This document shows, in pieces, positions 5,099 through 43,217 of a stretch of DNA of 64,000 nt (the first letter of the stretch is position 1; every line of letters starts with the position of its first letter). The DNA lies in the NCBI GenBank assembly GCA_017993835.1, contig JAGOLX010000003.1, positions 124,001 through 188,000 of the forward strand, read 5' to 3'. The position numbers were made by a program, and so were the translations under genes. This DNA is from Phycisphaerae bacterium. Its GTDB lineage: Bacteria; Planctomycetota; Phycisphaerae; Sedimentisphaerales; Anaerobacaceae. The notes beneath the pieces are model-generated. The model was not told the origin of the DNA. It made no database searches and saw only the letters and a program-made list of their open reading frames with translations.

Positions 5099-8000
5099 AT
5101 GCAAAGGTTTAAGGGAGTGAATCAAGTCATTCGGTTGCGGGCGACACTCGTCGCTCTGCTGGCAATCCTCATGGTGGGGATCTGGCCCGGCGCCGTGGGA
5201 GCGGCCGTCAGCAACACCGAGCCCGATCTGCACGACGGCAACGACGTGTATGGGCTCGAATTGACCGGCGATCCTTCTTATACGAACAACGAGACCGTTT
5301 TCCTTGGGGCCTACGGCGAGACCGACCCCGACCTCTACAGCGACGTCACATTCTACGCGTATGGCGTGTACGCCGACGCGAACATCGTGAACACCGGGGC
5401 CATTGACGTCAACGCGACGGGCGGCAACACGGCCGGAAGCGGTTACAGGGACGCGAGTTTCTGGGTGTACGGCCTCTATGGCGATGGGGACGCCCTCCAA
5501 AACAGCGACGCCATCACGATCCTCGCCCTGGGCGGCACCGCGGACTCGAATACCGCCGACGCTTATGCGAACGTCCATAGCAACGGGATCATCGGCAATG
5601 GCGACGTCAGCAATACCGGGGACATCATCGTCACAAGTACGGCTGATAGCGCTACGGCGTATGACGCCTCCGGCTCCGCCTATGCCGAAGCCTACGCGGA
5701 AGCCGACGGCATTGAGGCCGGCAACAATCTCAACAACACGGGCGATATCACGAGCACGGCCACAGCCGGCGCCGCCCAAGTTGATACCGCCTACTCCGCC
5801 TACGCTTATGCCTGGGCCGACGCCGATGGAATCGATGCCTACGGGGACGTCAACAACACCGGCAATATCACCCTCGCTGCCACAGGCGGAACGGCCGACG
5901 CCAACGCCACCGACAACTACGCCTACGCTGAAGCCGAGGCCTATGCCGAGGCAATTGAGACGGAAGGCAACGTCACCAACACAGGCGACATAGCCGTCAC
6001 GAGCACAGGCGGAACAGCCGGCACCACCTCCGGCTACGGCCAAGCTACAGCCTACGCCGAGGCATACGGGATCTACACAGACGTTGACGTCAACGATGTC
6101 GATGTCAACAACACGGGAACTGTCGCGGTCACAGCCGAGGGCGGTGAGGCCGACGCCGAAACCGACTACGACTACGCCTATGCGTACGCCAATACCGAGG
6201 CCTACGGGATCTTCGCGGATGGCGACTCCGGCGTCAACGACGTGACCGTCGCCAATGCGGGGACTGTCACCGTCGTGGCCACGAGTGGAGCGGCCACCGC
6301 GACCAGTGAAGAGTACTACGCCTATGCCTACGCCGATGCTGAGGCCTACGGAGTTGTCGCTGAGAGTTACTACGGCGACGATCTTACCATCGACAACACC
6401 GCCGATGTCAACGTCGCGGCCGCCGGCGGCACGGCCACCGCGGACGCCAATGAGTACTATGCCTACAGCTATGCCGACGCCGAAGCCTATGGCATCGGGG
6501 CCTACGCTGAGGGCGACGTGAATGCCGTCGCCGTCAGCAACACAGGCGCTGTTGTCGTCACGGCCGCGGGCGGAACGGCCACCGCGGACAGCAACGACTA
6601 CCAGGCCTATGCCGACGCCAACGCCGAGGCCTACGGAATCGGCGCCTATAGCGAAGACGCCAACGTCGTCACCATCAACAACACGGGCGCCATCGCCGTC
6701 ACAGCCATAGGCGGAACGGCCGACGCCAGTGCCATAGACACCGACGATGACGACAGCATCTACGCCTATGCGTATGCCGCAGCCGAGGCCTACGGAATCG
6801 GCGGTTACGAGGACTACGACGAGGGTGTCGTCGACGTCAACAACACCGCGGACATCGTCGTCACGGCCACGGGCGGAACGGCCAACGCCAGTGCCACGAG
6901 CACCAGCGACGAAGAGGACAACTACGCCTACGCCTACGCGTACACCAATCAGGCTGAAGCCGACGCCGAGGCATATGGAATCAGCGCAAGCGGCAGCGTC
7001 AACAATACAGGCGACGTCAACGTCGCGGCCACCGGGGGAACGGCCAGTTCCTCTGCCGATGCCATCGCCGACGCCAATGATGCCGACACCAGTGCTTATG
7101 CAGACGCCTACGCTTATGCGTACGCCTACGGCGCCAACGCCAACGCGTACGCCGTCGGAATCGAGGTCGACGAAGGCGATGTGAACAATGCCGGGGCCAT
7201 CACGGTCGCGGCCACCGGCGGCACGGCTCGTGCCGAGGGCAATGCCAGCGCCAGCGCGTATGCCGACGCCGACGACCCTGACGCCGAGACCAGCTACGCC
7301 AACGCCTACACCGAGGACTATGCCTACACCCATGCCTACGCCTACGCCTCGGCTGAAGCCTATGGAATCTCTACTGAATACTACGACGAGGAAGACCTCG
7401 ACAGCGACGTGAACAACACCGGGGCCATCACCGTCACGGCTACAGGCGGCACGGCAGAGGCGCAAGCCGCGACCTCCACAGATACCCGCGCCGAAGCCTC
7501 CGCTGAAACCGAGGCCTACGCCTACGAGTACGACTACTACAACTACACCTACGCCTACGCCTACGCCACCGCCAACGCCTATGCCACGGGAATTGACACG
7601 GAGTATGGCGACGTCAACAACACCGGAGCGATCACCGTTACCGCTCTGGGCGGCACAGCGGACGCCAACGGGGCCGATGTAGATACTCTCAATTCCAACG
7701 AGGCCACCGTCGACGCGGAGGACACGAGCGCCTACGCCTACGCCTACGACTACGACGATGACTACTACTATTACAATGCCTACGCCCAACTGTACGCCGA
7801 GGCCAGCGCCTATGGCTACGGGATTGACGCCGACGGCGACGTGAACAACACGGGGACTATTACCGTCACCTCAACCGGCGGAACAGCTCTCGCCGACGCG
7901 GCGGATGCCTATGCCGCCAGTGAGGCCCAGGCCACAGCCGACGCCAATACAGCCGGCGACGACAGCGCCTATGCCAATGCCAGCGCCGACACGGGTGCCC

Positions 8001-30568: not shown

Positions 30569-32143
30569 TCAGTTCTGCGGGCTGACTCCGACTCGACCTC
30601 GGATCCCGGCAGTCAGTTGCTCGACCTTCTCCCTGGGCAGGCTCGGGTGAGGGGGCAAATCGAGCGCCTTCTCCGCGAGTCCCAACGCTTCCTGCATGGC
30701 CTCAGGTCGGTGCTTGGAGAGAAACTGCGCAAGCCAGCAGTACACGACGGGATTGGTCGATTCCACGTCCAGCAGCGTGCGGAAATGCCTCTCCGCCTCG
30801 TCCAGGTTCCCGGTCATTTCCAGAATGCGGGCGAGCATGCCGCGAGGCCGCCCTTCCTCGGGACGCAGCTCGACGGCCCGATTCAGCGGGTCAATCGCAG
30901 CGGCGGGTCCCTGCGCCTGTGCCCGGCACGCCGCCAGCATCTGCCAGAGGTTGGCATTTCTCGGTTCCGATTGCGTTGCCTCCTCCAGGATTTCGGTGCA
31001 GCGCAGGAACTCCCTCTGTGCATCCAGCAGGTTCGCCAAGCCGATTGCCACAAGGCCGCGGGACCTTCCGGCCTGCCAGAGAGGCTCTAGAATCTGCTTC
31101 GCCTCGTCCGGCTCACCATTGCCCGAGAGGAATTGCGCGTACACGAGTTGTGTGGAAAGGCTGTTCGGATCCAGTTCCATTGCCCGCCTGTACGACTCAC
31201 GGGCAACGTCCGGCTGGCCCACTCTCTCCGCGGCGTACGCGAGCATCCTGTGCCCATAGCCCAACTCCGAACGGAGACGGATGAACGCTCGCGCCGACTC
31301 CATCGCCAGCTCGTACTTCTGCGGCCGCTGCAGACTCGACGTACGCAGGGCCAGCGAGCACACTTCGCGTGCGTCGGCAGGGCTTTGCAGACGGGTCTGC
31401 GCCCGACGCAGGCGGCCCTTGTCGAATCCATCCCCCAACAGCCCGAGCGCCTGGCTCACCGTGGGCCCTGTGGCTCCTTGTCCGAGAAACCGCTCGAGGT
31501 TCCGCTGAACCGTAGTAATACAGCCGACAACCTCGCCTGTATCCGGCAGTACGATGGCCGATCCGCTCCATCCAGGGCCCACCGCTTCGGCCTTGTTCAG
31601 CACGATGAGCCGAGGGATGCGCCCGCGGACGCCGACATACGCAACCAGCAGGACTTCCCCCTGGGCCTCGAACCCCTCCGGTGAGCTCACCGAATCCCAA
31701 TCCTCCAGCCGGTCGATGACCCTGGACAGTCCGATGACTCGGACTGAATTCGCATCCAGGATGGCATCGGCGCTCGCGAGCGACAGAGAGGGATGTCCCT
31801 TCCAGGGCACTTCCAGCACCGCCAGGTCGAGTTGCTCGTCGCTTGCCAGAATCCGGGCGTCACAGGCCTGCCCAAGACAGGGACTGAAGACCGAGACGAA
31901 CCCTTCGCATCGATGAGCGCCGGTGTTGGAAGACTCGTTGACCAGGTGGTCGCAGGTGATGACGAGCGTGCCATCGCCCACGATGAACCCGTTCCCCGCG
32001 CGTGTCCCACTGAAGTAGCGCGTCGTCACCACAACCAGAGCCGACTGGGGCAGGCCGTCCGCAGGAACAGCCTGCGAACCACAGAACGCACACGCCCCGA
32101 ACACCAGAGCCACAGAGATGACGCTTTTCCAGATACCCTTCAT
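30569..32143 (-). CDS. Secreted trypsin-like serine protease with TPR repeats
   Basis: A 524-residue exported protein with signal peptide (residues 1-28, SVALVFGACAFCGSQAVPAD). Residues about 35-235 look like an HtrA-type trypsin domain: GNGFIVGDGTLVITCDHLVN (His), DEQLDLAVLEVPW (Asp) and GPGWSGSAIVLPDTGEVVG (Ser in a GxSG-like turn). There is no PDZ domain. Residues about 270-500 form several TPR units (DVARESYRRAMELDPNSLST; GNLDEAERHFRTLLDVES), suited to protein docking. Proteolysis is likely but the catalytic geometry is unproven. It stands alone, with 500 bases free upstream. Confidence 0.75.
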   Translation of the reverse strand: MKGIWKSVISVALVFGACAFCGSQAVPADGLPQSALVVVTTRYFSGTRAGNGFIVGDGTLVITCDHLVNESSNTGAHRCEGFVSVFSPCLGQACDARILASDEQLDLAVLEVPWKGHPSLSLASADAILDANSVRVIGLSRVIDRLEDWDSVSSPEGFEAQGEVLLVAYVGVRGRIPRLIVLNKAEAVGPGWSGSAIVLPDTGEVVGCITTVQRNLERFLGQGATGPTVSQALGLLGDGFDKGRLRRAQTRLQSPADAREVCSLALRTSSLQRPQKYELAMESARAFIRLRSELGYGHRMLAYAAERVGQPDVARESYRRAMELDPNSLSTQLVYAQFLSGNGEPDEAKQILEPLWQAGRSRGLVAIGLANLLDAQREFLRCTEILEEATQSEPRNANLWQMLAACRAQAQGPAAAIDPLNRAVELRPEEGRPRGMLARILEMTGNLDEAERHFRTLLDVESTNPVVYCWLAQFLSKHRPEAMQEALGLAEKALDLPPHPSLPREKVEQLTAGIRGRVGVSPQN

Positions 32144-32590: not shown

Positions 32591-32636
32591 TTGACATGTC
32601 TTACACATGTAGGATATTATATCCTACACATGTAAG
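32591..32636 (+). promoter_or_regulatory. Promoter and double BlaI operator
   Basis: TTGACA at 32591-32596 and TATTAT at 32615-32620 (18-base spacer). Two identical dyads TACACATGTA at 32602-32611 and 32625-32634 match the TACA-NN-TGTA boxes of BlaI/MecI and flank the -10 element, 23 bases centre to centre. The gene starts at 32648, so this is almost surely autoregulation of the blaI-M56 cassette. Confidence 0.85.
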
Positions 32637-32647
32637 AGGAGACAGGC

Positions 32648-33022
32648 ATGAGCAAGAAACAACTACGGGCGATGAGTCCGGCGGAAACGGAAATCCTTCG
32701 GCTGGTTTGGCAATTGGGCGAAGCGACTGTGCAACAGGTGCGCGATGCCCTGCCGGAGAACCGCAAGGTGGCCTACAAAACGGTCCAGACTCTTCTGCGG
32801 CGACTGGAGGAAAAGGGCTATCTGACGCACAAGATCGAAGGCAAGGCCCACGTCTTCTGCCCCGCCGTCAAACGCGAGGCGGTCGTCAAGCGAACGGTCC
32901 TGGACTTCCTCGACCGCCTCTTCGGCGGCGACCCCCGGCCCCTGATGCACTTTCTGGCCCGGGAAGGCCGAATCGATCAAAAGGATATCGAGGAACTGAA
33001 GAAGCTCATCGACGAATCGTAG
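32648..33022 (+). CDS. BlaI/MecI/CopY-family repressor (cassette 1)
   Basis: A 124-residue winged-helix repressor that should bind the TACANNTGTA boxes upstream. It has the family start SPAETEILRLVWQLGEATVQ, recognition helix KTVQTLLRRLEEKGYL, wing HKIEGKAHVFCPAV and C-terminal dimerisation helices. SD AGAGGAGA. The next gene is an M56 metallopeptidase, the partner that inactivates BlaI in the penicillinase systems. No beta-lactamase gene is nearby, so the regulated response is something else. Confidence 0.93.
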   Translation: MSKKQLRAMSPAETEILRLVWQLGEATVQQVRDALPENRKVAYKTVQTLLRRLEEKGYLTHKIEGKAHVFCPAVKREAVVKRTVLDFLDRLFGGDPRPLMHFLAREGRIDQKDIEELKKLIDES

Positions 33023-33054
33023 CAAAGCAGACACTGGCTACGGAGGTGCCGACG

Positions 33055-33123
33055 ATGGATGCCTATCTGAACGAGGTCGTGCGATACCTATTTGCGCAGA
33101 GTTGGTAGATCGCTCTGCTGACC
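33055..33123 (+). other. Original 5' end of the M56 gene, cut off by an in-frame TAG
   Basis: An ATG at 33055 with SD GGAGG opens MDAYLNEVVRYLFAQSW and then reaches TAG at 33106-33108. The frame continues without a break as IALLTVAVAVLTFALRRRSA. In related BlaR1-like proteins this spot normally reads SWQIALL, so the stop looks like a CAG to TAG change. It could be a true nonsense mutation, an assembly error or a site of readthrough. Confidence 0.7.
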
Positions 33124-35325
33124 GTGGCTGTAGCGGTGCTCACCTTCGCCCTGCGGCGCCGCAGCGCCCATGTTCGCTACCTGCTCTGGTTGATCGTTCT
33201 GGCCAAGTGCCTCGTACCACCGCTGTACGTGGTGCCTCTGTACGTCCTGCCTACCGTGGTCCCCGGAGGCACTCCCGATTCGCTGCCCTTGTTGGAGTGG
33301 CTCGCGGCGCATTCCGGGTCTCCACCCCCAGCATCACCCGAGGGGTCCTCTGTCGCAGTCCGCGAATCCGTTCCAACAGATCGAACCATGCAAGCCCGGG
33401 GACGACGTCTGTCCACATGCGGATGGCTGGGGGCCCTCTGGATTGCTGGTGTCGTCACATATCTGACGGTAAACCTGCTCCGTGCTCTGCGAGGCCACCG
33501 TCGGCTTCGAAAGAACCGAAGACTCCTTCCGGATGATATGCGGGCCGATATTACCGAGACGCTGCTGGCCTATGGTCTGAAAAGACATCCGAAGGTCTGG
33601 ATCGTCGAGAACGTAGGGCAACCCTTCGTGTGGGGTTTGCTTCGGGGGAGCATCTACGTCCCGACGAGTCTTCTCTCTATCGGGAGGCATGAGCACCGCC
33701 GAGACGTCCTGGCGCACGAACTGAGTCACATGGTTCGGTTCGACGCGGGCGTCAACGTCCTCCAAGTGGTGGCCCAAGCGGTCTTCTGGTTTCACCCATT
33801 GGTCTGGTGGGCAAACCGCAAGATCCGCGTCGAACGGGAGAAGTGCTGCGATGAGACAGCCATTGCCCGTCTCCACACCCAGGCGAAGGACTACTGCAGC
33901 GCGGTGGTCGAAACACTCGCCAACATGAAGAAATCGCCTCGGCCCGTGCCGTCGTTGGCCATAGCTGGTCCACTCAAAGATATCGAGGAAAGGATTAGAA
34001 CCATGCTGCAACCAGGAAGAGAATTCCGCCGACATGCCGGTCTCAGAATGGCGTTGGCCGTTCTGCTGCTAGCCACGTTCACCGTCCCAACAACCTTGGT
34101 TCTGTGCGCCAAAGGTGGAACAGAACAGGCAACTTCGGTCAGCGACGAAGGGTTGTCACTGGGGTCAGGTGAGAGAACACCTGCCGGAGCATCTGCAGCG
34201 CGTTTGGGCGATCTAATTCGCACCTTCCAGGACCCTAATGTCAACGGACGGAGTATGTTCGGACACTCCGTCACAGTGATCGGGAATGACGTTCTGGTAG
34301 GAGCCCCCATGAACAAGGTCGCATATCTGTTCGACGGCTCGACCGGAAGACTCATGCGAACATTCGTTCCTCCAGATCCGACAAAGGCTGGCCTCTTCGG
34401 ATTCTGCGTGGGCGGGGTCGGACAAGATGTCCTTATTGCGGACTTGGCATACAGGGCGGATCCAAATGGCCAGCCGCCAGGAGAAGCCTACTTGTTCAAC
34501 GGTCATACAGGAGAGCTGCTCCGCACGTTCGCAAATCCGCAGCCCGACAACTACATGCTCTTCGGACGAGCCGTGGCTGGAATGGGTGACGGTCGGGTCA
34601 TTCTCCAAGCGGTATCCAAGGACATGACGACGGATGTCACCTTCCTTCTTGACGCTCCCACCGGCAAAGTGCTGCACGTTTTCCAGCAACCCAAGTCGAA
34701 AAACGTTGGAGGGGACGAGACTTGGGTAACTGCCATTGACGACCAGATATGGATCGGAGCGATGTGTGACGACACCGGCGCCGAGAAGGCGGGCGCCGTG
34801 TATGTGTTCGATGGTGCCACAGGCAAGCCCGTACGTACCTTCCTGAATCCCAATCCGAGCCCCTATGCCCTCTTCGGCAACTGTATTGCCTTCTCCGCCA
34901 ATCGTGTCCTGATCGGTGCCGCTCTAGCAACCATTGATGGAAGACGATCCGGGGCCGTCTATTTGTTCGAACGTGGAACCGGCGAATTGCTTCGGAGTTT
35001 CATGAATCCCTCGCCCAGCGAGGCCGGCAAATATGATAGCACAGGACCGCATGGCGACTACTTCGGACGCTCTGTGGCTTGGGTAGGCAACAGCGTTTTG
35101 ATCGGAACGACATGGGATGACACGGGCGCCAAGGCGGCCGGAGTAGCGTATCTGTTCGACGGTGCAACCGGCAGGTTGCTTCACAAGTTCGCCAATCCCA
35201 ATCCGGTGGAGAACGCTCACTTCGGTGTTCAGGTGGCCGCTCTGGGGAACAACATCCTTGTTGCAGCCCGCGATCTGGGGGGGCGCATGAGCGGCACCGT
35301 CTACTTGTTCAAAGGCACTGACTAA
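33124..35325 (+). CDS. M56 (BlaR1-like) membrane metallopeptidase with FG-GAP-like beta-propeller (cassette 1)
   Basis: A 733-residue frame after the internal TAG; GTG 33124 could restart translation. N-terminal membrane helices (VRYLLWLIVLAKCLVPPLYV) are followed by the cytoplasmic zinc peptidase: HELSH at 198-202, the downstream WFHPLVWWANRKIRVEREKC and the CDE motif. A further membrane helix lies near 310-330 (LRMALAVLLLATFTVPTTLV). Beyond it, residues about 360-733 form seven or so repeats such as YLFDGATGRLLHKFANPNP and FGVQVAALGNNILVAA, an FG-GAP/integrin-like beta-propeller facing outside. This replaces the penicillin-binding sensor of BlaR1. Predicted role: an outside signal activates the peptidase to relieve BlaI repression. 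Confidence 0.8.
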   Translation: MAVAVLTFALRRRSAHVRYLLWLIVLAKCLVPPLYVVPLYVLPTVVPGGTPDSLPLLEWLAAHSGSPPPASPEGSSVAVRESVPTDRTMQARGRRLSTCGWLGALWIAGVVTYLTVNLLRALRGHRRLRKNRRLLPDDMRADITETLLAYGLKRHPKVWIVENVGQPFVWGLLRGSIYVPTSLLSIGRHEHRRDVLAHELSHMVRFDAGVNVLQVVAQAVFWFHPLVWWANRKIRVEREKCCDETAIARLHTQAKDYCSAVVETLANMKKSPRPVPSLAIAGPLKDIEERIRTMLQPGREFRRHAGLRMALAVLLLATFTVPTTLVLCAKGGTEQATSVSDEGLSLGSGERTPAGASAARLGDLIRTFQDPNVNGRSMFGHSVTVIGNDVLVGAPMNKVAYLFDGSTGRLMRTFVPPDPTKAGLFGFCVGGVGQDVLIADLAYRADPNGQPPGEAYLFNGHTGELLRTFANPQPDNYMLFGRAVAGMGDGRVILQAVSKDMTTDVTFLLDAPTGKVLHVFQQPKSKNVGGDETWVTAIDDQIWIGAMCDDTGAEKAGAVYVFDGATGKPVRTFLNPNPSPYALFGNCIAFSANRVLIGAALATIDGRRSGAVYLFERGTGELLRSFMNPSPSEAGKYDSTGPHGDYFGRSVAWVGNSVLIGTTWDDTGAKAAGVAYLFDGATGRLLHKFANPNPVENAHFGVQVAALGNNILVAARDLGGRMSGTVYLFKGTD

Positions 35326-35509
35326 CACTTGTGGCGCCCATCCTTTCTTGGGTACCAGCGACAGAGTGTCCACCAACCGAGGTAAGGAGTCGGCGGGGTC
35401 AACGGACGCCCCGCCGGTGTTTTGTCATTCTCAACATGCGTTTGTATCGCGGGCCACCACCTTTGCCGGGCATCCTGCACATGCCGACCCCAAAGAAAAT
35501 CTTCACCAT

Positions 35510-35558
35510 CTACGGTTTTTACCGTTGACATACTACTGGTTAAGCCGTAGTCTATAGT
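35510..35558 (+). promoter_or_regulatory. Promoter-operator of the second BlaI cassette
   Basis: TTGACA at 35525-35530 with TAGTCT 17 bases on. Inverted repeats: ACGGT-TTTT-ACCGT (35512-35525) next to the -35 box, and CTACGG / CCGTAG (35510-35515 and 35545-35550) around the promoter. They differ from the boxes of cassette 1, so the two repressors probably see different operators. Confidence 0.6.
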
Positions 35559-35606
35559 GTGGATTGGCAAGTGAATTCGTCGTTCCTGTGGATCAGGAGG
35601 TTTTCT

Positions 35607-36002
35607 ATGGCACGACCACGTCAGGAGAATCCGACGCCCGCGGAATTGGAGGTGCTGCGGGTTATCTGGGAGCGAGGGCCAAGCACCGTTCGCGAGGTCA
35701 TGATCTCGCTGCATCAGGATCGCCCGAGGGCCTATACCTCCGTGATGAGCCTGATGAACGTCATGGTGGAGAAAGGTCTGCTCGCCACAGAACCCAAAGG
35801 CCGGGCCTTCCTCTACTCCGCGAAGATCTCCCAGGCCCGGACGCAGTCCGAGATCGTGAAGGACCTGCTCGGGCGAGTATTCGACGGCTCGGCCAGCGCC
35901 CTGGTCACCCACCTGCTCGAGCAGGCCAAGCCGGATGGCGAGGAACTGGACGAAATCCAGAAGACGATTGCTGAGTTCGCACGCAAGAAGGGAGGTGCGT
36001 AA
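35607..36002 (+). CDS. BlaI/MecI/CopY-family repressor (cassette 2)
   Basis: A 131-residue winged-helix repressor: NPTPAELEVLRVIWERGPST, RAYTSVMSLMNVMVEKGLLA (recognition helix), wing EPKGRAFLYSAKISQ, then C-terminal dimer helices. The ATG at 35607 is chosen for SD AGGAGG 6 bases upstream; a longer frame to 35559 overlaps the promoter. Its stop overlaps the start of the next gene (TAATG), so the repressor and peptidase are translationally coupled. Confidence 0.93.
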   Translation: MARPRQENPTPAELEVLRVIWERGPSTVREVMISLHQDRPRAYTSVMSLMNVMVEKGLLATEPKGRAFLYSAKISQARTQSEIVKDLLGRVFDGSASALVTHLLEQAKPDGEELDEIQKTIAEFARKKGGA

Positions 36003-38839
36003 TGTCCGTGGTCGAGTTCTTCTCCCAGCCCGTTTGGCACCGCTTGAGTCTCACCCTGGTCCACTTTCTCTGGCAGGGTCTGGCAGCAGCGATGCTCGCC
36101 TGTGTGTCCGTTCGACTCCTGAGACTCCAGCGAGGCAACCCTCGCTATGCGGCCTACCTCGTGGTGTTTGTCGCGACGGCAGCCTGTCCGCTGATCACGT
36201 TCGCAGTCCTGGATGCGCCCTCGCAGTCTGTCGCCACGCCGGCGAATCCGTCGCCTGTGATCGAATCGGCAACGCCCGACCCCCTTGTCGCTTCCATCAC
36301 CCCGGTGCAGTCACAGGGCGGGAACCCAGTGATTGGCACACCGCTGGCCCACCGCCCTCTCCACGAGAGACTCGACAGCATACTGCAGGCATCGCTGCCA
36401 TGGGCAATGTTGTGTTGGATGGGCGGGGTCCTGGTGTTGAGCGTGCGTTTGCTGCTGGGGTTTATCGGCGTATGCCGATGGCGCCGCAGCGCCGAGCCTC
36501 CGGCAAGCGAGCTTACGACGCGGATCAGAGTGCTGAGCGAAAGACTGGGTATGGCGGGCTTCTCTCGGGTATTCATCTCACAGCGAGCGATGGAGGCGGC
36601 CGCAATGGGCTGCCTGCATCCCATCGTGTTGTTGCCCGCTGCCCTGGCGACCCGGATGCCGCCGGAGATGTTGGAGGCCGTGATCGCTCACGAGTTGGCC
36701 CACATCCGCCGACTCGACTTGTGGGTCAACCTGGCCCAGCGGGTGGTCGAGACACTCTTGTTCTACCACCCGGCGGTCTGGTGGTTGTCTTCCCGCCTGC
36801 GCAGCGAGCGGGAGTTGTGCTGCGACGAACTGGCCGTGAAAGCCACAGGAGAACGACTGACGTATGCGTCAGCCCTGGAGAGTGCAGGGAGAATCCATTT
36901 GGCCTTGACACGGCCCACCCTTGCCCTGCGGTTTGGACAAGACGGAAAGCCCACGCTCAGCCGCGTCCGTCACATCCTGGGCTTTCCCGCCACTCCGCCG
37001 GACTCGCGTGCCTGGCTCGCCGGCGCCATCGTGGTCGCCCTGCTGGCAGTCCTTGCTATACCACCGTTTTCGGCCTGGACCGGGGGAGCCGAGAAGGAAC
37101 CTGCAATCCGCAAAACAGACCAAACACTCGCATTGCCCGCGCCGCTCTCTCAGTTCCCCCGCACACTGAATGGCTGGACCGGCGAGGATCTCCACCTTCC
37201 GGCGGCCGTGCGAGAGTACATGCGAGACAAGGCAACCGACGATTTCATTAACCGGCGCTACGTCAACAGGGCTACGCAGCAATCGGCGGATCTGTACGTG
37301 GCATATTCCTCGTCCCATCCGAGCGGCGTTCTCAGCCAATCCCCACTGCGATGCTTCCCTGCGAACGGGTGGATTTGGGATCAGACGGCCCCCCTGAACA
37401 TTGTCACCTCATCCAATCGCCTGATTCGGGTCGCCGTGCACCGATTTCACCCGCTTTCTTCGCCACCGACCGAGTTGGCCGTGCTGTGCGTCTACATCGT
37501 GGACAACAGAATCGTGACAGAGCAGGACTTGTTGGAACGGTTTGCGGAAGAGACTCCGCAACACCAACTCCGCTATGTGGCCCAGATCGAAATCAGTTCC
37601 TTCCGCGGAGATTCCGTTCGGTCGGCGGCTGGCGCGATGCTCGATGCTCTCCTGGAGACCTTTGCTGTACGCAGTCCTGCCACCGAACCTGGAGCAGATG
37701 ACAGTGGAGGGGAGTCCCAGGAATCAGGCTCTCCACCTCAGACTTTCAACTCCAGCATGGTGTTTGACGTCTTCGCCCAGAAGTCCTTTTCTCATGTTCC
37801 CGACATGGACTCCGGCGAGATGGGGTCCGGCCCAAGGTGGATCGGGCGTACCCCGAGTGCCTCACCGACGGAGATTCCCGCTGGCTGGATATGGTGGGTG
37901 TTGCCGTCAGTTCCGGTGGACAATTGGGACGCGTTGATCGAAGAGATGGATCACAGTGGCGTCCCCGGTTTGAAACTGCCCCTGGCCACCGATTCCGATA
38001 TGGAACATCTCGCAAATCTGGCAAGGCTCAAATATCTGGATCTGATCTCGCCGCGAATTACCGATGTAGGTCTCGCCCACCTCAAGAACCTGTCCGAATT
38101 GCAGTGGCTGACTCTTCAGGCGGGTGCCGGTGTAACCGACGCTGGCTTGGCGAATCTCGCCGGCATGACCAAGCTGAGGATTCTGGTTTTGGGCAACATA
38201 CAGGTCACAGACGCAGGTCTGGCGCATCTCAAAGGCCTGACCGCCTTGCAGGCTCTGTCCGTGCAGGGTGCTCCGATCTCCGATGCGGGTCTAAGGAACC
38301 TCCAGGGTCTGAGCAAGCTGCAATTCCTGGACTTGCTCGGGACCCAGATTACGGACAACGGCGTGGCCCTGCTGACGCATCTGCCCGAATTGCAGGTCCT
38401 GCTGTTGGGCAGCGCCAAGATCACGGGGCCCGGTTTGGCCCATCTCAAGGGCATGCCTCGATTGCGTGGATTGGTCCTGGCAGGCACCCAGGTCACGGAC
38501 GCCAGTCTGGCCTCTCTCGCGGACCTGCCGGGATTGCAGGGATTGACCCTGTCCGGCACGCAAATCACCGATGCAGGCATCGCCCACCTCCAGGGCCTCA
38601 CCGGACTACGAGTTCTGGAACTGGAGAACACCAGGATCACCGACGCGGGTCTCGCATACCTCCAGGGCCTAACCGAATTGACGTGGCTGAACCTGACCAG
38701 CGACAAGATCACGGATGCGGGCCTGGGACAACTCGAGAGCCTCACCGGGTTGAAGCATCTGTCGACACGGGGCAAGCAGATTACGCTCGCCGGTGAACAA
38801 CGGCTCAAGCAGGGTCTTCCAAATCTCACGAGAGACTGA
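36002..38839 (+). CDS. M56 (BlaR1-like) metallopeptidase with EpsI/DUF3485-like and leucine-rich repeat domains (cassette 2)
   Basis: A 945-residue membrane protein. Residues 1-340 form the M56 region: helices near the N-terminus, HELAH at 230-234, LFYHPAVWWLSSRLRSEREL and the CDEL motif, and a helix near 340-358 (WLAGAIVVALLAVLAIPPF). Residues about 378-565 read like the exosortase-associated EpsI domain: LSQFPRTLNGWTGEDLHLP, SADLYVAYSSSHP, SPLRCFPANGW. Residues about 660-945 are about a dozen leucine-rich repeats of the type AGLAHLKGLTALQALSVQGA / ITDAGL. No penicillin-binding domain is present. The fusion suggests a protease relay that reads an envelope or polysaccharide-export signal (inference). 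Confidence 0.85.
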   Translation: MSVVEFFSQPVWHRLSLTLVHFLWQGLAAAMLACVSVRLLRLQRGNPRYAAYLVVFVATAACPLITFAVLDAPSQSVATPANPSPVIESATPDPLVASITPVQSQGGNPVIGTPLAHRPLHERLDSILQASLPWAMLCWMGGVLVLSVRLLLGFIGVCRWRRSAEPPASELTTRIRVLSERLGMAGFSRVFISQRAMEAAAMGCLHPIVLLPAALATRMPPEMLEAVIAHELAHIRRLDLWVNLAQRVVETLLFYHPAVWWLSSRLRSERELCCDELAVKATGERLTYASALESAGRIHLALTRPTLALRFGQDGKPTLSRVRHILGFPATPPDSRAWLAGAIVVALLAVLAIPPFSAWTGGAEKEPAIRKTDQTLALPAPLSQFPRTLNGWTGEDLHLPAAVREYMRDKATDDFINRRYVNRATQQSADLYVAYSSSHPSGVLSQSPLRCFPANGWIWDQTAPLNIVTSSNRLIRVAVHRFHPLSSPPTELAVLCVYIVDNRIVTEQDLLERFAEETPQHQLRYVAQIEISSFRGDSVRSAAGAMLDALLETFAVRSPATEPGADDSGGESQESGSPPQTFNSSMVFDVFAQKSFSHVPDMDSGEMGSGPRWIGRTPSASPTEIPAGWIWWVLPSVPVDNWDALIEEMDHSGVPGLKLPLATDSDMEHLANLARLKYLDLISPRITDVGLAHLKNLSELQWLTLQAGAGVTDAGLANLAGMTKLRILVLGNIQVTDAGLAHLKGLTALQALSVQGAPISDAGLRNLQGLSKLQFLDLLGTQITDNGVALLTHLPELQVLLLGSAKITGPGLAHLKGMPRLRGLVLAGTQVTDASLASLADLPGLQGLTLSGTQITDAGIAHLQGLTGLRVLELENTRITDAGLAYLQGLTELTWLNLTSDKITDAGLGQLESLTGLKHLSTRGKQITLAGEQRLKQGLPNLTRD

Positions 38840-38871: not shown

Positions 38872-39357
38872 ATGGAACCCAGCAGTATAGACACACCCAC
38901 AAGATCAGTGCTCAGGCGAATTCACATCGTCGCGACAGCCTGGTTCGTCGCATGTGCCGGATACCTTCTCGCAGATGGGTTGCGCCGAGCGGGGTTCAAC
39001 TGGTGGCTGGTTCTCTCCCTGTCCGGGTACTCCACGAGTATGCTTCTGCTTCTCGTCTGTCTCTACCTGTTCGCTTTCGTTCACGGCATCCGAGGGTTAC
39101 GACGCACCAGAGCCGAGCACCCCGTGACCGGCGCCGGCTACTACATGTTCCTCTACGTGTCGACTCCATTGCTCACCGGCCTGTGCGCCGCTACCGAAAT
39201 CGACAACGCTTCCGGAACAAACGGGCATTTGATTTACATCGCAACGGTAACGTTGAAAGCAACGTTCCTTGCGTGGGTTGTCATCGATCCACTCGTGGGG
39301 TTCATAGAGATACATCTGTCCGCAAGTCGCAGTCACCGGACCATCAGGAAGAAGTGA
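38872..39357 (+). CDS. Four-helix membrane protein, unknown
   Basis: 161 residues with four hydrophobic segments (IVATAWFVACAGYLLADGL; WLVLSLSGYSTSMLLLLVCL; YMFLYVSTPLLTGLCA; TLKATFLAWVVIDPLVGFIE) and a charged basic tail. It lies 32 bases after the second M56 gene in the same direction and could belong to that operon. The start has a weak SD (GGGAAG). I recognise no family. Confidence 0.65.
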   Translation: MEPSSIDTPTRSVLRRIHIVATAWFVACAGYLLADGLRRAGFNWWLVLSLSGYSTSMLLLLVCLYLFAFVHGIRGLRRTRAEHPVTGAGYYMFLYVSTPLLTGLCAATEIDNASGTNGHLIYIATVTLKATFLAWVVIDPLVGFIEIHLSASRSHRTIRKK

Positions 39358-39400: not shown

Positions 39401-41068
39401 CTACATGCGCTTGTAGCGAGGGCCGCCGCCGCCTTCGGGGGCGGTCCAGCGGATGTTGTCGAACGGACACTTCCGCTGGCAGGTCTTGCAGTGGAGGCAG
39501 TTCGAGGGGTTGGCCGCCTTGGGCTGGTCGTGGATCTCCTCGTAGACGCCCGCCGGGCAGAACGCGACGCACGGCGCGTTCAAGGTCGGCTTGCACTTCG
39601 TCGTGCAGATCGTCGGATCGACGATCTTGAGGTGCGAGGGCTGCTCCTCGCGGTGTTCAGTGGCCGCGACCGCGGTGAACGTGTCCTTGTCGAAGTTCAT
39701 GTGCGGCTTGAGCCTATATGGGGCACCGGTCATCGCTGCGTAGTCCTTTTCGACGTGGAACTGAGGCAGCCAGCCGCCCAGGACCGAGAACGGCATGCCC
39801 TGCAACGGCCCAAACTTCGCAACCGTCTGTCGGAAGTTCTTGGCCGACTTCATTTCCTTGGCGATGTTCGACTGCTCGACGTTGGCGGTGTACTTGGCCG
39901 CCGCGACGCCGGGGTCATCGAGCGAAGCGACGATGGCCTTGGCCGCCAGCATGCCGGACTCGATGGCGTTGTGCAGACCCTTGATCTTGCACATATTCAC
40001 GAAGCCGGCGCTGTCGCCGAGGATCATGACGTTGCCCTTGCCGATGCTCTGGGTCTCGGGATCTCGCGGGACAGCGTACCAGCCGCCCTCGGGGATCATC
40101 TTGGCGCCGGCCTCGACGACCGTGCCGCCTTCGATGAACTGCTTGACGAACTTGTGCTCCTTGAACCGCACGAGGGCGTCCTGGGCGTTGAAATTGTGAT
40201 ACTTCCAGTCGAGCCCGACGATCATGCCGACCGCGAGGTGGTCCTGCTCGCCGGCGTAGACGATGCCGCCGCCGAACATGCCGGGACCGAGGACCGGCGT
40301 CCAGATCGGGTAACCCATCGCGTGGACGACACGGCCTCGCGTGAACTTGTTGTACTGTTCCGGCGTGACCTTGATGAGTTCCTTGACGCCGATGGAATAG
40401 AGCTGGTGCGATTGACGCTTGAGACCTGCGGATTCGACGAACCGCTCGGTGACAAGCCCGTCGCAGCCTTCCGCCAGGACGATGAACTTCGCCTGGATCG
40501 TCTCGCCCTCGACGTAGTTGGGCTGCTTGTGCCCATCCTTGTCGATGCCCTGGTCGACGAGCTTGACGCCCTCGGCGACCGCGTCGCCGTTGCAGACGAC
40601 GTGATCGGCCGCAAAACCCGTCAGGACCTCGATGCCCATGCTCTTCGCGATCCCGCCGAGCCATTTCGTCAGCCGGCTGATCGAGACGGAGTAGTCGCCA
40701 TGATGAATCATCTGGCCGAAGGCCAGGCCCATCCTGCGAGCCAGCTTGAGCATGGGGAAGATCCCGAACGCCATGTTCTTGCCCAGCAGGAACATGATGT
40801 CGTCCTTGTCGATGACGTTGGCGAGGACCTGCTTGGCCTCGTCTGTGTCGCGCCAGCCGGGCTTGGCCGCGTCGAGCAGCGTGCTCAGCGGCTCCTTCTC
40901 GAGCACGGCCCCGGAGAGGTTGTGATTGCCCAGATCGAGGGACTTGTCGATCACGACGACATCGATCTCGGGCCTGAGCACCTTCAGTTGGATCGCGGTC
41001 GAAAGCCCCGCCGGGCCCGCGCCCACGACCAGGACCGACGCTTTGCTGTATTCACTATGATTCGGCAC
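39401..41068 (-). CDS. Electron-transfer flavoprotein:quinone oxidoreductase (FixC/ETF-QO type, with ferredoxin tail)
   Basis: A 555-residue membrane-associated flavoprotein that passes electrons from ETF to the quinone pool. The FAD motif VLVVGAGPAGLSTAIQLK is at residues about 12-30; GKGNVMILGDSAGFVNMCKI is the second FAD motif. The C-terminal ferredoxin part holds CTTKCKPTLNAPCVAFCPAG and CLHCKTCQRKCPF, followed by the family ending PEGGGGPRYKRM. There are two Cys groups where typical ETF-QO has one cluster, as if FixC and a FixX-like ferredoxin were fused. It lies 50 bases after the ETF gene in one operon. No acyl-CoA dehydrogenase gene is in the window. Confidence 0.92.
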   Translation of the reverse strand: MPNHSEYSKASVLVVGAGPAGLSTAIQLKVLRPEIDVVVIDKSLDLGNHNLSGAVLEKEPLSTLLDAAKPGWRDTDEAKQVLANVIDKDDIMFLLGKNMAFGIFPMLKLARRMGLAFGQMIHHGDYSVSISRLTKWLGGIAKSMGIEVLTGFAADHVVCNGDAVAEGVKLVDQGIDKDGHKQPNYVEGETIQAKFIVLAEGCDGLVTERFVESAGLKRQSHQLYSIGVKELIKVTPEQYNKFTRGRVVHAMGYPIWTPVLGPGMFGGGIVYAGEQDHLAVGMIVGLDWKYHNFNAQDALVRFKEHKFVKQFIEGGTVVEAGAKMIPEGGWYAVPRDPETQSIGKGNVMILGDSAGFVNMCKIKGLHNAIESGMLAAKAIVASLDDPGVAAAKYTANVEQSNIAKEMKSAKNFRQTVAKFGPLQGMPFSVLGGWLPQFHVEKDYAAMTGAPYRLKPHMNFDKDTFTAVAATEHREEQPSHLKIVDPTICTTKCKPTLNAPCVAFCPAGVYEEIHDQPKAANPSNCLHCKTCQRKCPFDNIRWTAPEGGGGPRYKRM

Positions 41069-41117
41069 GTTCTATTTCCTTAAGTTTGATTTATGACTGT
41101 AAGAATCAAACGTCCTC

Positions 41118-43217
41118 TCACGCCTCGTGAAGGGCTTCCACCAGCTTCGGGATCACATCCTCGACGGTCCCGACCATATAGTAGTCGCACTGCTTGAAGA
41201 TCGGGGCGTTCGGGTCGCTGTTGATCGCCACGATCGTCTCGCTGTTCGCGACGCCGATCATGTGCTGGATCGCGCCCGAGATGCCCAGCGCGACGTAGAG
41301 CTTGGGACCGACGGACGTGCCGGTCTGGCCCACCTGGTGGATTCGCTCGACAAAGCCCTGCTCGACCGCAGCGCGGGAGGCGCCCCGCTCGACCTCGGTT
41401 TCGAGCTTGTGGCTCAGGGCACTCGTCAGATGGCCTACGAGCTTCTCGAACCCATCGCGGCTCTGCATGCCCTTGCCGCCGGAGACGATGGCATCCGCGT
41501 GGAGGTTCACCGCGCCGTGTCCCAGTTCCGTCTTGATGATTTCGAGACTGACGTCCGCGTCGGTGATCTCAACCTTGTGATGGACGATCTTGCCCTTGCG
41601 GGAGGGGTCGGCCGGGATGCGTTTCATCACGCCCGGACGGGCAGTTGCCATCTGGCACTTGGAGCTCTTCGTGCGAATCGTCGCCATGACGTTTCCGCCG
41701 AGGGCGGGACGGGTCTGCAGGAGCAGGCCGACCTCGCCCTTTCGCGAGCTGTCGCGGATGTCGAGACCGGTGCAGTCGGCGGTCAGGCCGCAACCGGTGC
41801 GGTAGGAGATCATCGGCGCCAGGCTTCGGCCCTGCGGCGTCGCGGCGTAGAGAACGATCTGCGGCACGTACTTGTCAATCGCATCGGCGATCACCTTGCG
41901 ATAGGCGGTCGGGTCGAACTCGGCGAGCAGCTTGTGCTCGATGGCGTAGACCGTGTCCGCGCCCGCCGCGATCACCTCCTCGGCCATGTGCGCGACGTTC
42001 TCGCCTGCGATGCAGACGCCGACCTTCGTTTCGAGCGAGTCGGCCAGCTCTCGGGCCTTGCCGGTCAGCTCGAACGTCGCAGGATGCACCACGCCGTCGG
42101 CATGCTCCGCGACGACCCACACCTCGCCCTGGAAGGCGGGTTCGGTGGCCTTCATGCCGTTGAGCATGTCCTCGACGGCCTTCAGCGGAATCCTATCGCC
42201 GATCGCAGCCATGATCCGACCCTGGGTCGCTTCATCGATCTGATCGACCTTCTTGATATTGAGGTCTTCAAGGACCTGCGCGAGGAGGTTAAAGTCATCT
42301 TGTTCCTTGGCAGTGGCCTCGAAAGGCCGCTGGAAGAGGCTCTTGCGACGTTTGGGCAGGATGTACTTGCCGTCGTCTTTCTTGCCGCCAGCGGCGCCGC
42401 CGTTGCCGTTGCCCTTCTTGAAGTTCTCAACAACGATCCTGGCCAATTCCTTGGCGTCGGTCAGGTGCTTGCACTTGCGTGTGCTCTTTCCCGGCGGGAA
42501 CACGCGGATCACCGCGGTCTTGGAGCCCTTGGCGCCGATGAGGGGAGCGTTGATGTCCCCGGCCCCCCACTGGATCACGGGAGCCTTGGCCGCGGCGCGC
42601 ATCCCGCTGAACGTCGCGAACAGCGGATACTCGTACTTGGCGACGGTGATGACGGCGGGCAGTTTCTTCGTCGCGACCGTCTGGCTGCCCCCGCTGATGA
42701 TGCGAGTGAATTCGAAACGCTTCTTCGTGTACTGGGCGCCGGTCACATAGGCGATGCAGGGCAATCCCAGCTCCTCCGCGAGCTGCGCCGGGACCTGGGC
42801 GGTGTCGCCGTCGACCGACTGCATGCCCGCTACGACAAAGTAGTCGTCGCCGCAGGCGAGCAGTTCCTTGACGACTCTCCGAATGGCGCAGGCCAGCGGG
42901 TTGGCGGTTGCGACCGTGTCGGCGCCGCCCAGCGCCCGGTCCGTCAGCAGGACGACCTGGTCGGCGATCCGGGCCAGGCTGTAGCGAAGCACGTCCACCG
43001 CCATGGGCGGGCCCATCGTCACCGCGACGATCCGGGCCTTCGCGTCGCCGCTGATCTTCTTCATGTGGCTCGCGAACGCCAGTGCCTGGGCGTCCAGATC
43101 GTTGATCACGTTGGCCAGACGCGACCGGACCAGCGTGCCCGTCTCCGGGTCGAACGCATTGTCCGTGATCTGCGAGACGTCGGGAACCTGTTTGACCAGA
43201 ACAATGTAGTCACTCAT
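41118..43217 (-). CDS. Fused electron-transfer flavoprotein, beta and alpha subunits in one chain
   Basis: A 699-residue protein. Residues 1-265 are ETF beta / FixA (IVLVKQVPDVSQITDNAFDP, AGMQSVDGDTAQVPAQLAEE), residues about 266-335 a Gly/Lys-rich linker (KKGNGNGGAAGGKKDDGKY), and residues about 365-699 ETF alpha / FixB, including the FAD-binding region (APMISYRTGCGLTADCTGLD, RPALGGNVMATI, GQTGTSVGPKLYVALGISGA). The subunits are normally separate, adjacent genes. The next gene is ETF-QO, so the pair forms a full route from ETF to quinone. Whether it bifurcates electrons cannot be settled by eye. Confidence 0.93.
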   Translation of the reverse strand: MSDYIVLVKQVPDVSQITDNAFDPETGTLVRSRLANVINDLDAQALAFASHMKKISGDAKARIVAVTMGPPMAVDVLRYSLARIADQVVLLTDRALGGADTVATANPLACAIRRVVKELLACGDDYFVVAGMQSVDGDTAQVPAQLAEELGLPCIAYVTGAQYTKKRFEFTRIISGGSQTVATKKLPAVITVAKYEYPLFATFSGMRAAAKAPVIQWGAGDINAPLIGAKGSKTAVIRVFPPGKSTRKCKHLTDAKELARIVVENFKKGNGNGGAAGGKKDDGKYILPKRRKSLFQRPFEATAKEQDDFNLLAQVLEDLNIKKVDQIDEATQGRIMAAIGDRIPLKAVEDMLNGMKATEPAFQGEVWVVAEHADGVVHPATFELTGKARELADSLETKVGVCIAGENVAHMAEEVIAAGADTVYAIEHKLLAEFDPTAYRKVIADAIDKYVPQIVLYAATPQGRSLAPMISYRTGCGLTADCTGLDIRDSSRKGEVGLLLQTRPALGGNVMATIRTKSSKCQMATARPGVMKRIPADPSRKGKIVHHKVEITDADVSLEIIKTELGHGAVNLHADAIVSGGKGMQSRDGFEKLVGHLTSALSHKLETEVERGASRAAVEQGFVERIHQVGQTGTSVGPKLYVALGISGAIQHMIGVANSETIVAINSDPNAPIFKQCDYYMVGTVEDVIPKLVEALHEA

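Follow-up and report, generated by a model that had tools for sequence, protein, structure and literature searches.

What can a BlaR1-type receptor report to its cell when it carries no penicillin-binding sensor? The question is raised by two tandem repressor/peptidase cassettes at positions 32,591 to 38,839 of a 64,000-nucleotide stretch of a Phycisphaerae bacterium (hereafter the window; positions 124,001 to 188,000 of contig JAGOLX010000003.1, assembly GCA_017993835.1). In each, a BlaI-type repressor gene adjoins the gene of an M56 membrane metallopeptidase, and the peptidases end in an FG-GAP propeller in cassette 1 and in EpsI-like and leucine-rich repeat (LRR) domains in cassette 2. We consider it probable that each cassette is a BlaR1-type outside-in proteolytic switch with an exchangeable sensor and a private, mainly self-regulating operator. 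The main features of the locus are the following.

32591-32596 (+): TTGACA promoter element, followed after a spacer of N18 by TATTAT, which ends at 32620
32599-32637 (+): operator 1, TCTTACACATGTAGGATAT-T-ATATCCTACACATGTAAGA, overlapping the spacer and the -10 element of the TTGACA-N18-TATTAT promoter
32648-33022 (+): BlaI1, a winged-helix repressor (Penicillinase_R) of 124 amino acids (aa)
33055-35325 (+): M56-1 frame, a BlaR1-type membrane metallopeptidase with FG-GAP propeller; natural start ATG 33055
33106-33108 (+): in-frame TAG, codon 18 of M56-1, inside transmembrane helix 1 (TM1; W-TAG-I)
33715-33729 (+): zinc motif HELSH of M56-1, with the ExxxD ligand motif about 37 residues further downstream
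34210-35322 (+): predicted extracytoplasmic FG-GAP beta-propeller of M56-1 (PF14312, FG-GAP_2, E 2.6e-29)
35525-35551 (+): TTGACA element and operator 2, the latter being TACTACTGGTTAAGCCGTAGT at 35531-35551
35607-36002 (+): BlaI2, a repressor of 131 aa whose TAA overlaps the ATG of M56-2 (TAATG)
36002-38839 (+): M56-2, 945 aa, with M56 at residues 1-345, TM4 at 339-357, EpsI/DUF3485 at 346-553 and LRR at about 660-945
37037-37660 (+): EpsI-like domain of M56-2 (PF11984, 59.9 bits, cut-off 26.1, E 3.7e-16)

Profile searches bear out the sequence-only reading, which had seen two repressor/peptidase pairs in a row with different domains at the end of each peptidase. BlaI1 and BlaI2 match PF03965 with 113.5 and 100.6 bits (cut-off 22.6; E 8.8e-33 and 8.7e-29), and M56-1 and M56-2 match PF05569 with 138 and 91.3 bits (cut-off 31; E 4.8e-40 and 8.3e-26); BlaI1 also matches the Staphylococcus aureus BlaI structure 1sd4 (E 1.3e-12), and the LRRs of M56-2 are recovered with an E of 6.8e-21. 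The whole genome holds 15 BlaI and 17 M56 matches, all 15 BlaI genes being immediately followed by one for M56; with 15 such pairs the tandem arrangement is not special in itself. The link extends well beyond this genome: BlaI is found just upstream of 59 of the 64 M56 frames in relatives (a set that includes a few duplicate loci and two fragments) and of M56 in most of our named loci too, the relatives in these collections being mostly Phycisphaerae/Sedimentisphaerales metagenome assemblies. Across 148 planctomycete genomes the M56 and BlaI gene counts are correlated at r=0.967, the M56 counts of the richest genomes being lower bounds of at least about 14-15; one genome has at least 15 M56 and 19 BlaI genes.

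The residues on which the switch would depend are equally well kept. In BlaR1 the active site consists of HEXXH (201-205) and E242xxxD246, with D210, Y261 and R294 needed or assisting; its N-terminus and sensor lie outside, and it cuts BlaI at the Asn101-Phe102 bond (PMC9834060). Both M56-1 and M56-2 retain HExxH...ExxxD, and the equivalents of BlaR1 H201, E202, H205, D210, E242, D246 and Y261 are invariant in 63 of 63 cassettes, so that the loss of peptidase motifs among homologues, which the sequence-only reading had named, like a missing link to BlaI, as a finding that would refute it, is not what the family displays. The S283/F284 columns of the same alignment, unreliable owing to a truncated BlaR1 fragment, carry no claim about the autocleavage site. 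All eight members of a diverse family alignment have an Arg at the spacing of R294, and a family profile retrieves S. aureus BlaR1 itself (8exp, E 2.8e-7). On the repressor side, the position aligned to Phe102 (P1') is Leu in 59 of 63 cassettes, which would offer a hydrophobic residue, as such proteases prefer. The positive-inside charge pattern and the hydropathy of four TM segments predict an N-out/C-out topology, as in BlaR1, M56-1 as assembled being without TM1. AlphaFold2 models M56-1, with the TAG read as Q, as four TM helices and a propeller (predicted local distance difference test, pLDDT, 77.9), which Foldseek places close to WD40 and integrin-alpha propellers; for M56-2 it returns a confident EpsI domain and an internalin-like LRR (pLDDT 85).

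Repressor and peptidase evolve together, and the outer domain goes its own way. In the 1953 pairwise comparisons among 63 cassettes, the identity of BlaI rises with that of M56 (r=0.955). Among the 95 pairs whose M56 parts are at least 60% identical, any C-terminal similarity is found in 37%, and the C-termini are unrelated in 63%; the M56 parts of L127 (ankyrin) and L128 (CarboxypepD_reg) are 76% identical, for instance, and those of L120 (LRR) and L146 (ankyrin) 73%. With 23 C-terminal types, the M56 tree requires the type to have changed at least 29 times, an undercount, since single-linkage clustering merges ankyrin and LRR. In 47 M56-1-like proteins the C-termini comprise ankyrin (14), PD40 (8), CarboxypepD_reg (8), secretin (PF00263; 8), LRR (6) and Laminin_G (4), while the M56 proteins of this genome end in WD40/PD40, LRR, FG-GAP, EpsI plus LRR, a beta-helix with SecDF-P1 head, secretin/STN, redoxin or unclassified sequence.

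The clearest cases come from orthologous loci, where the same neighbours frame different receptors. In the window the cassettes are followed by ETF-QO and ETF genes (39401-43217). A genome of the same genus has the same neighbours at L110 (BlaI1 88%, M56-1 59%, ETF-QO 81% and ETF 89% identical), with ankyrin repeats in place of FG-GAP and without cassette 2; a frameshift separates its M56 and ankyrin parts, as is common in draft assemblies. At L111, also of the same genus, the cassette-2 orthologue (BlaI2 82%, M56-2 66%) is convergent with ETF-QO (86%) and carries CarboxypepD_reg in place of EpsI-LRR. The C-terminal halves of the window proteins and of these L110 and L111 orthologues are not significantly similar (E 2.4 and 0.61). 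The csrA gene lies upstream of the cassette both in L111 (cassette-2 type) and in L109, a cassette-1 orthologue that ends ahead of its C-terminal domain, so that either cassette may have occupied a slot flanked by csrA and the ETF genes. Exchange of outer domains at orthologous loci strongly supports the modular architecture with swapped sensors that had been proposed from the window alone. The further suggestion, that the swapped domains might read envelope or matrix signals, stays conjectural.

Each cassette had also been credited with its own operator-like repeats, and here the two differ. The arms of operator 1, an inverted repeat of 19 bp, are 89% complementary; it has two TACACATGTA boxes (TACA-CA-TGTA) 23 bp apart, exceeds dinucleotide shuffles (p<=0.01) and is kept in two orthologous cassettes (L109 and L110). 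Operator 2 as a palindrome stands at the shuffled level (p=0.70) and was rejected as such; what speaks for it is that two orthologues keep it. The elements TACTAC-GGTTA-GC-GTAGT and the preceding TTGACA are found in L111 and in part in L112; a third orthologue, L113, has no recognisable counterpart. When the genome's 15 BlaI promoters are pooled, inverted repeats are over-represented in them (Fisher p 3e-7) and not in control stretches inside BlaI (p 0.57); the repeats differ from one cassette to another. In the genome-wide search that had been suggested for both operators, the full operator 1 occurs once, at its own cassette promoter, and operator 2 in one place, likewise its own promoter, with no further genomic targets of either beyond background. 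Each operator standing only before its own cassette, we take the cassettes to be private outside-in switches that regulate themselves. The downstream genes were considered as a common output and set aside, no shared gene being evident in a crude codon-usage scan of open reading frames (ORFs), in which products were not compared.

The two cassettes may not be equally intact. Both repressor/peptidase pairs lie wholly within the window, but the sequence-only reading missed the in-frame TAG at 33106 in M56-1. With this TAG the longest uninterrupted ORF begins only at GTG 33124, the next start codon, and lacks TM1. The frame stays open for more than 730 codons beyond the TAG, which suggests that the TAG arose recently, is tolerated or reflects an error of assembly, and the codon at this site is CAA/CAG (Gln) in two orthologues from two same-genus genomes. 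Pyrrolysine or other recoding was rejected: a profile search of the genome found no pyrrolysyl-tRNA synthetase (PylS) above cut-off, TAG is the ordinary stop codon of BlaI1, and the orthologues have Gln. The explanation we prefer is therefore a nonsense mutation, or else a fault of the assembly. Elsewhere in the genome, another M56-LRR gene, L025 (G000:C104 ~38349), also has an in-frame TAG (5348-5350 of that locus), which falls between two RTFNSK-LRR modules, the downstream module being open for many codons.

The EpsI-like domain of M56-2 is 38% identical across 187 aa to the stand-alone EpsI of this genome (L117), and 31-38% identical to nine stand-alone EpsI proteins, which are present in relatives as well. 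Like exosortase-associated EpsI (DUF3485), it scores above the PF11984 cut-off; unlike it, the domain is fused to M56, falls below the TIGR02914 cut-off (26.7 bits against 42.8) and is without the Cys and Gly-His found in 9/9 stand-alone EpsI (C92S, G101S, H102Q). It is probably derived from a stand-alone EpsI, to judge from these alignments, and the loss of Cys and Gly-His would fit a receptor no longer doing EpsI's original work. No second M56-EpsI fusion was found among the matches listed from 61 genomes. An RTFNSS-type linker joins the domain to the LRR module, which shares 41% identity across 428 aa with the LRR module of L025; the M56 half of L025 belongs to the M56-1 subfamily (50% identity to M56-1, and 33% over a short stretch to M56-2). 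The genome's stand-alone EpsI (L117, 6500-7354) lies in a polysaccharide gene cluster with a DegT aminotransferase, a flippase-like protein and glycosyltransferases; the genome has three exosortases, one of them on the contig of this EpsI, at a distance of about 24 kb.

Compared with BlaR1-BlaI and MecR1-MecI of Staphylococcus and Bacillus, the cassettes have the same repressor gene adjoining an M56 protease gene, the gluzincin site, four TM helices, a C-terminal domain predicted outside and an operator that overlaps the promoter. They differ in having FG-GAP or EpsI plus LRR and no penicillin-binding sensor, in that no beta-lactamase or penicillin-binding protein gene was seen beside them, and in that about 15 paralogous pairs with differing operators occur in this one genome. 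Their repressors share the Penicillinase_R family with CopY/TcrY and with mycobacterial BlaI; a solved family structure, 2g9w, was matched, and the CopY_TcrY profile gives BlaI1 71 bits, below its cut-off of 122. CopY acts through metal binding, without a partner protease. From the likeness to BlaR1-BlaI we infer that the cassettes work in the same way with a different input. A BlaI dimer would repress its own cassette promoter through the private operator; M56 would span the membrane with four TM helices, keep its zinc-protease domain in the cytosol and, where BlaR1 has the penicillin sensor, expose a C-terminal receptor domain outside the cytoplasm; binding of a ligand or a conformational change there would activate the protease; and the activated protease would clip BlaI near its C-terminal dimerisation helix, inducing the operon and any co-transcribed genes. 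BlaI and M56 would form the conserved transducer, and the outer domain would be swapped by recombination at the junction after TM4, also at one and the same locus. Gene pairing, catalytic residues, predicted topology, BlaI-M56 co-divergence, decoupled C-termini and genome-unique operators are direct results of the computations.

Several other explanations have to be weighed against this switch. That the cassettes are ordinary beta-lactam resistance regulators is suggested by their BlaI and M56 families, those of bla/mec regulation, yet appears extremely improbable: a profile search found a penicillin-binding domain in none (0/17) of the C-termini of the genome's M56 proteins, and M56-1 and M56-2 score 93.6 and 52.5 bits with the NCBIfam blaR1_generic model, far under its cut-off of 400. 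The cassettes belong to Pfam M56 and Penicillinase_R and not to BlaR1, either by sensor or by the NCBIfam cut-off. Improbable too, if less so, is mere co-transcription, with M56 a general membrane protease and BlaI its simple, uncleaved repressor; in its favour, M56 has kinship with the M48 proteases, HtpX among them, and cleavage of BlaI is a step that the switch model presumes, but the co-divergence of BlaI and M56, their matching gene counts across the phylum and the hydrophobic residue kept at P1' count against it. It is unlikely, though by no means negligible, that the C-terminal domain is itself the product: the operon would encode an autoregulated surface protein whose M56 half gauges its own assembly or processing, and cleavage of BlaI would set the amount of outer domain, be it propeller, LRR, secretin or redoxin, that is displayed or shed. 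The operon is the only visible target, each operator occurring at its own promoter, and several C-termini look like effectors or structural parts (secretin, redoxin, 3-keto-disaccharide hydrolase, SecDF-P1 head); many others, however, are binding modules (LRR, ankyrin, FG-GAP, Laminin_G, CBM9), and in the studied homologue BlaR1 the sensor occupies the same position.

We retain the outside-in switch as the preferred explanation, and several points weigh against it. For each operator the own-cassette promoter is the sole promoter found, which leaves a downstream output unread; ankyrin, secretin and redoxin-like C-termini are untypical ligand sensors; the cassette pairs compared are phylogenetically non-independent, and most of the cassette sample was drawn by similarity to M56-1. 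Cassette 1 may be inactive or broken in this assembly, given its premature TAG. Ligand sensing, cleavage of BlaI and the output or target gene are also the steps that the model adds by inference.

A broader reading, to which we would give slightly less than an even chance, is that the orthogonal proteolytic receptors of Planctomycetes form a large repertoire in rapid diversification, in which a fixed BlaI-M56 transducer with a private operator would have its outer domain replaced in situ by recombination, drawing on FG-GAP, LRR, ankyrin, WD40/PD40, lectin-like domains and captured proteins such as EpsI. Each circuit would be closed on itself, with the receptor operon as its own main output, and the exchange of outer domains could be likened to that of binding repeats in immune-type receptors. 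The BlaR1-BlaI system has been known almost exclusively for switching antibiotic resistance, and the same transducer here looks like a general, expandable signalling chassis across a whole phylum; our findings suggest that such customisable cell-surface sensors make up a large family that has been little studied. With natural exchanges at orthologous loci, the part of BlaR1 that carries the signal becomes testable, and natural chimeras are on offer for building orthogonal protease-repressor sensors. We found no account of sensor-swapped BlaI-M56 families in the literature, of which subscription journals and preprints were mostly uncovered.

Two further features lie between and behind the cassettes.

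35389-35418 (+): terminator-like hairpin between the cassettes, with an 11 bp stem followed by GTTTTGT
38872-39357 (+): predicted membrane protein of 161 aa, starting 32 bp after M56-2

The hairpin is suggestive only, the count of such hairpins in the region equalling that in shuffled sequence, and an Rfam search of the region gave no match. The 161 aa protein is possibly co-transcribed with M56-2; it has no family match and no homologue in the related loci compared. Upstream of operator 1 and divergent from cassette 1 lies a trypsin-like protease with TPR repeats (30569-32143, minus strand). Among other family members, the M56 gene of L029 (G000:C18:63476) is without BlaI and ends before TM4, and looks truncated. 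Secretin, STN or Secretin_N domains occur in the C-terminal half of the M56 proteins of L028 (G000:C111), L138 and L147, which is unexpected in a signalling receptor, and L022 (G000:C12:26420-) encodes a 3357-aa M56 protein with a SecDF P1 head, HEAT and NosD/beta-helix domains.

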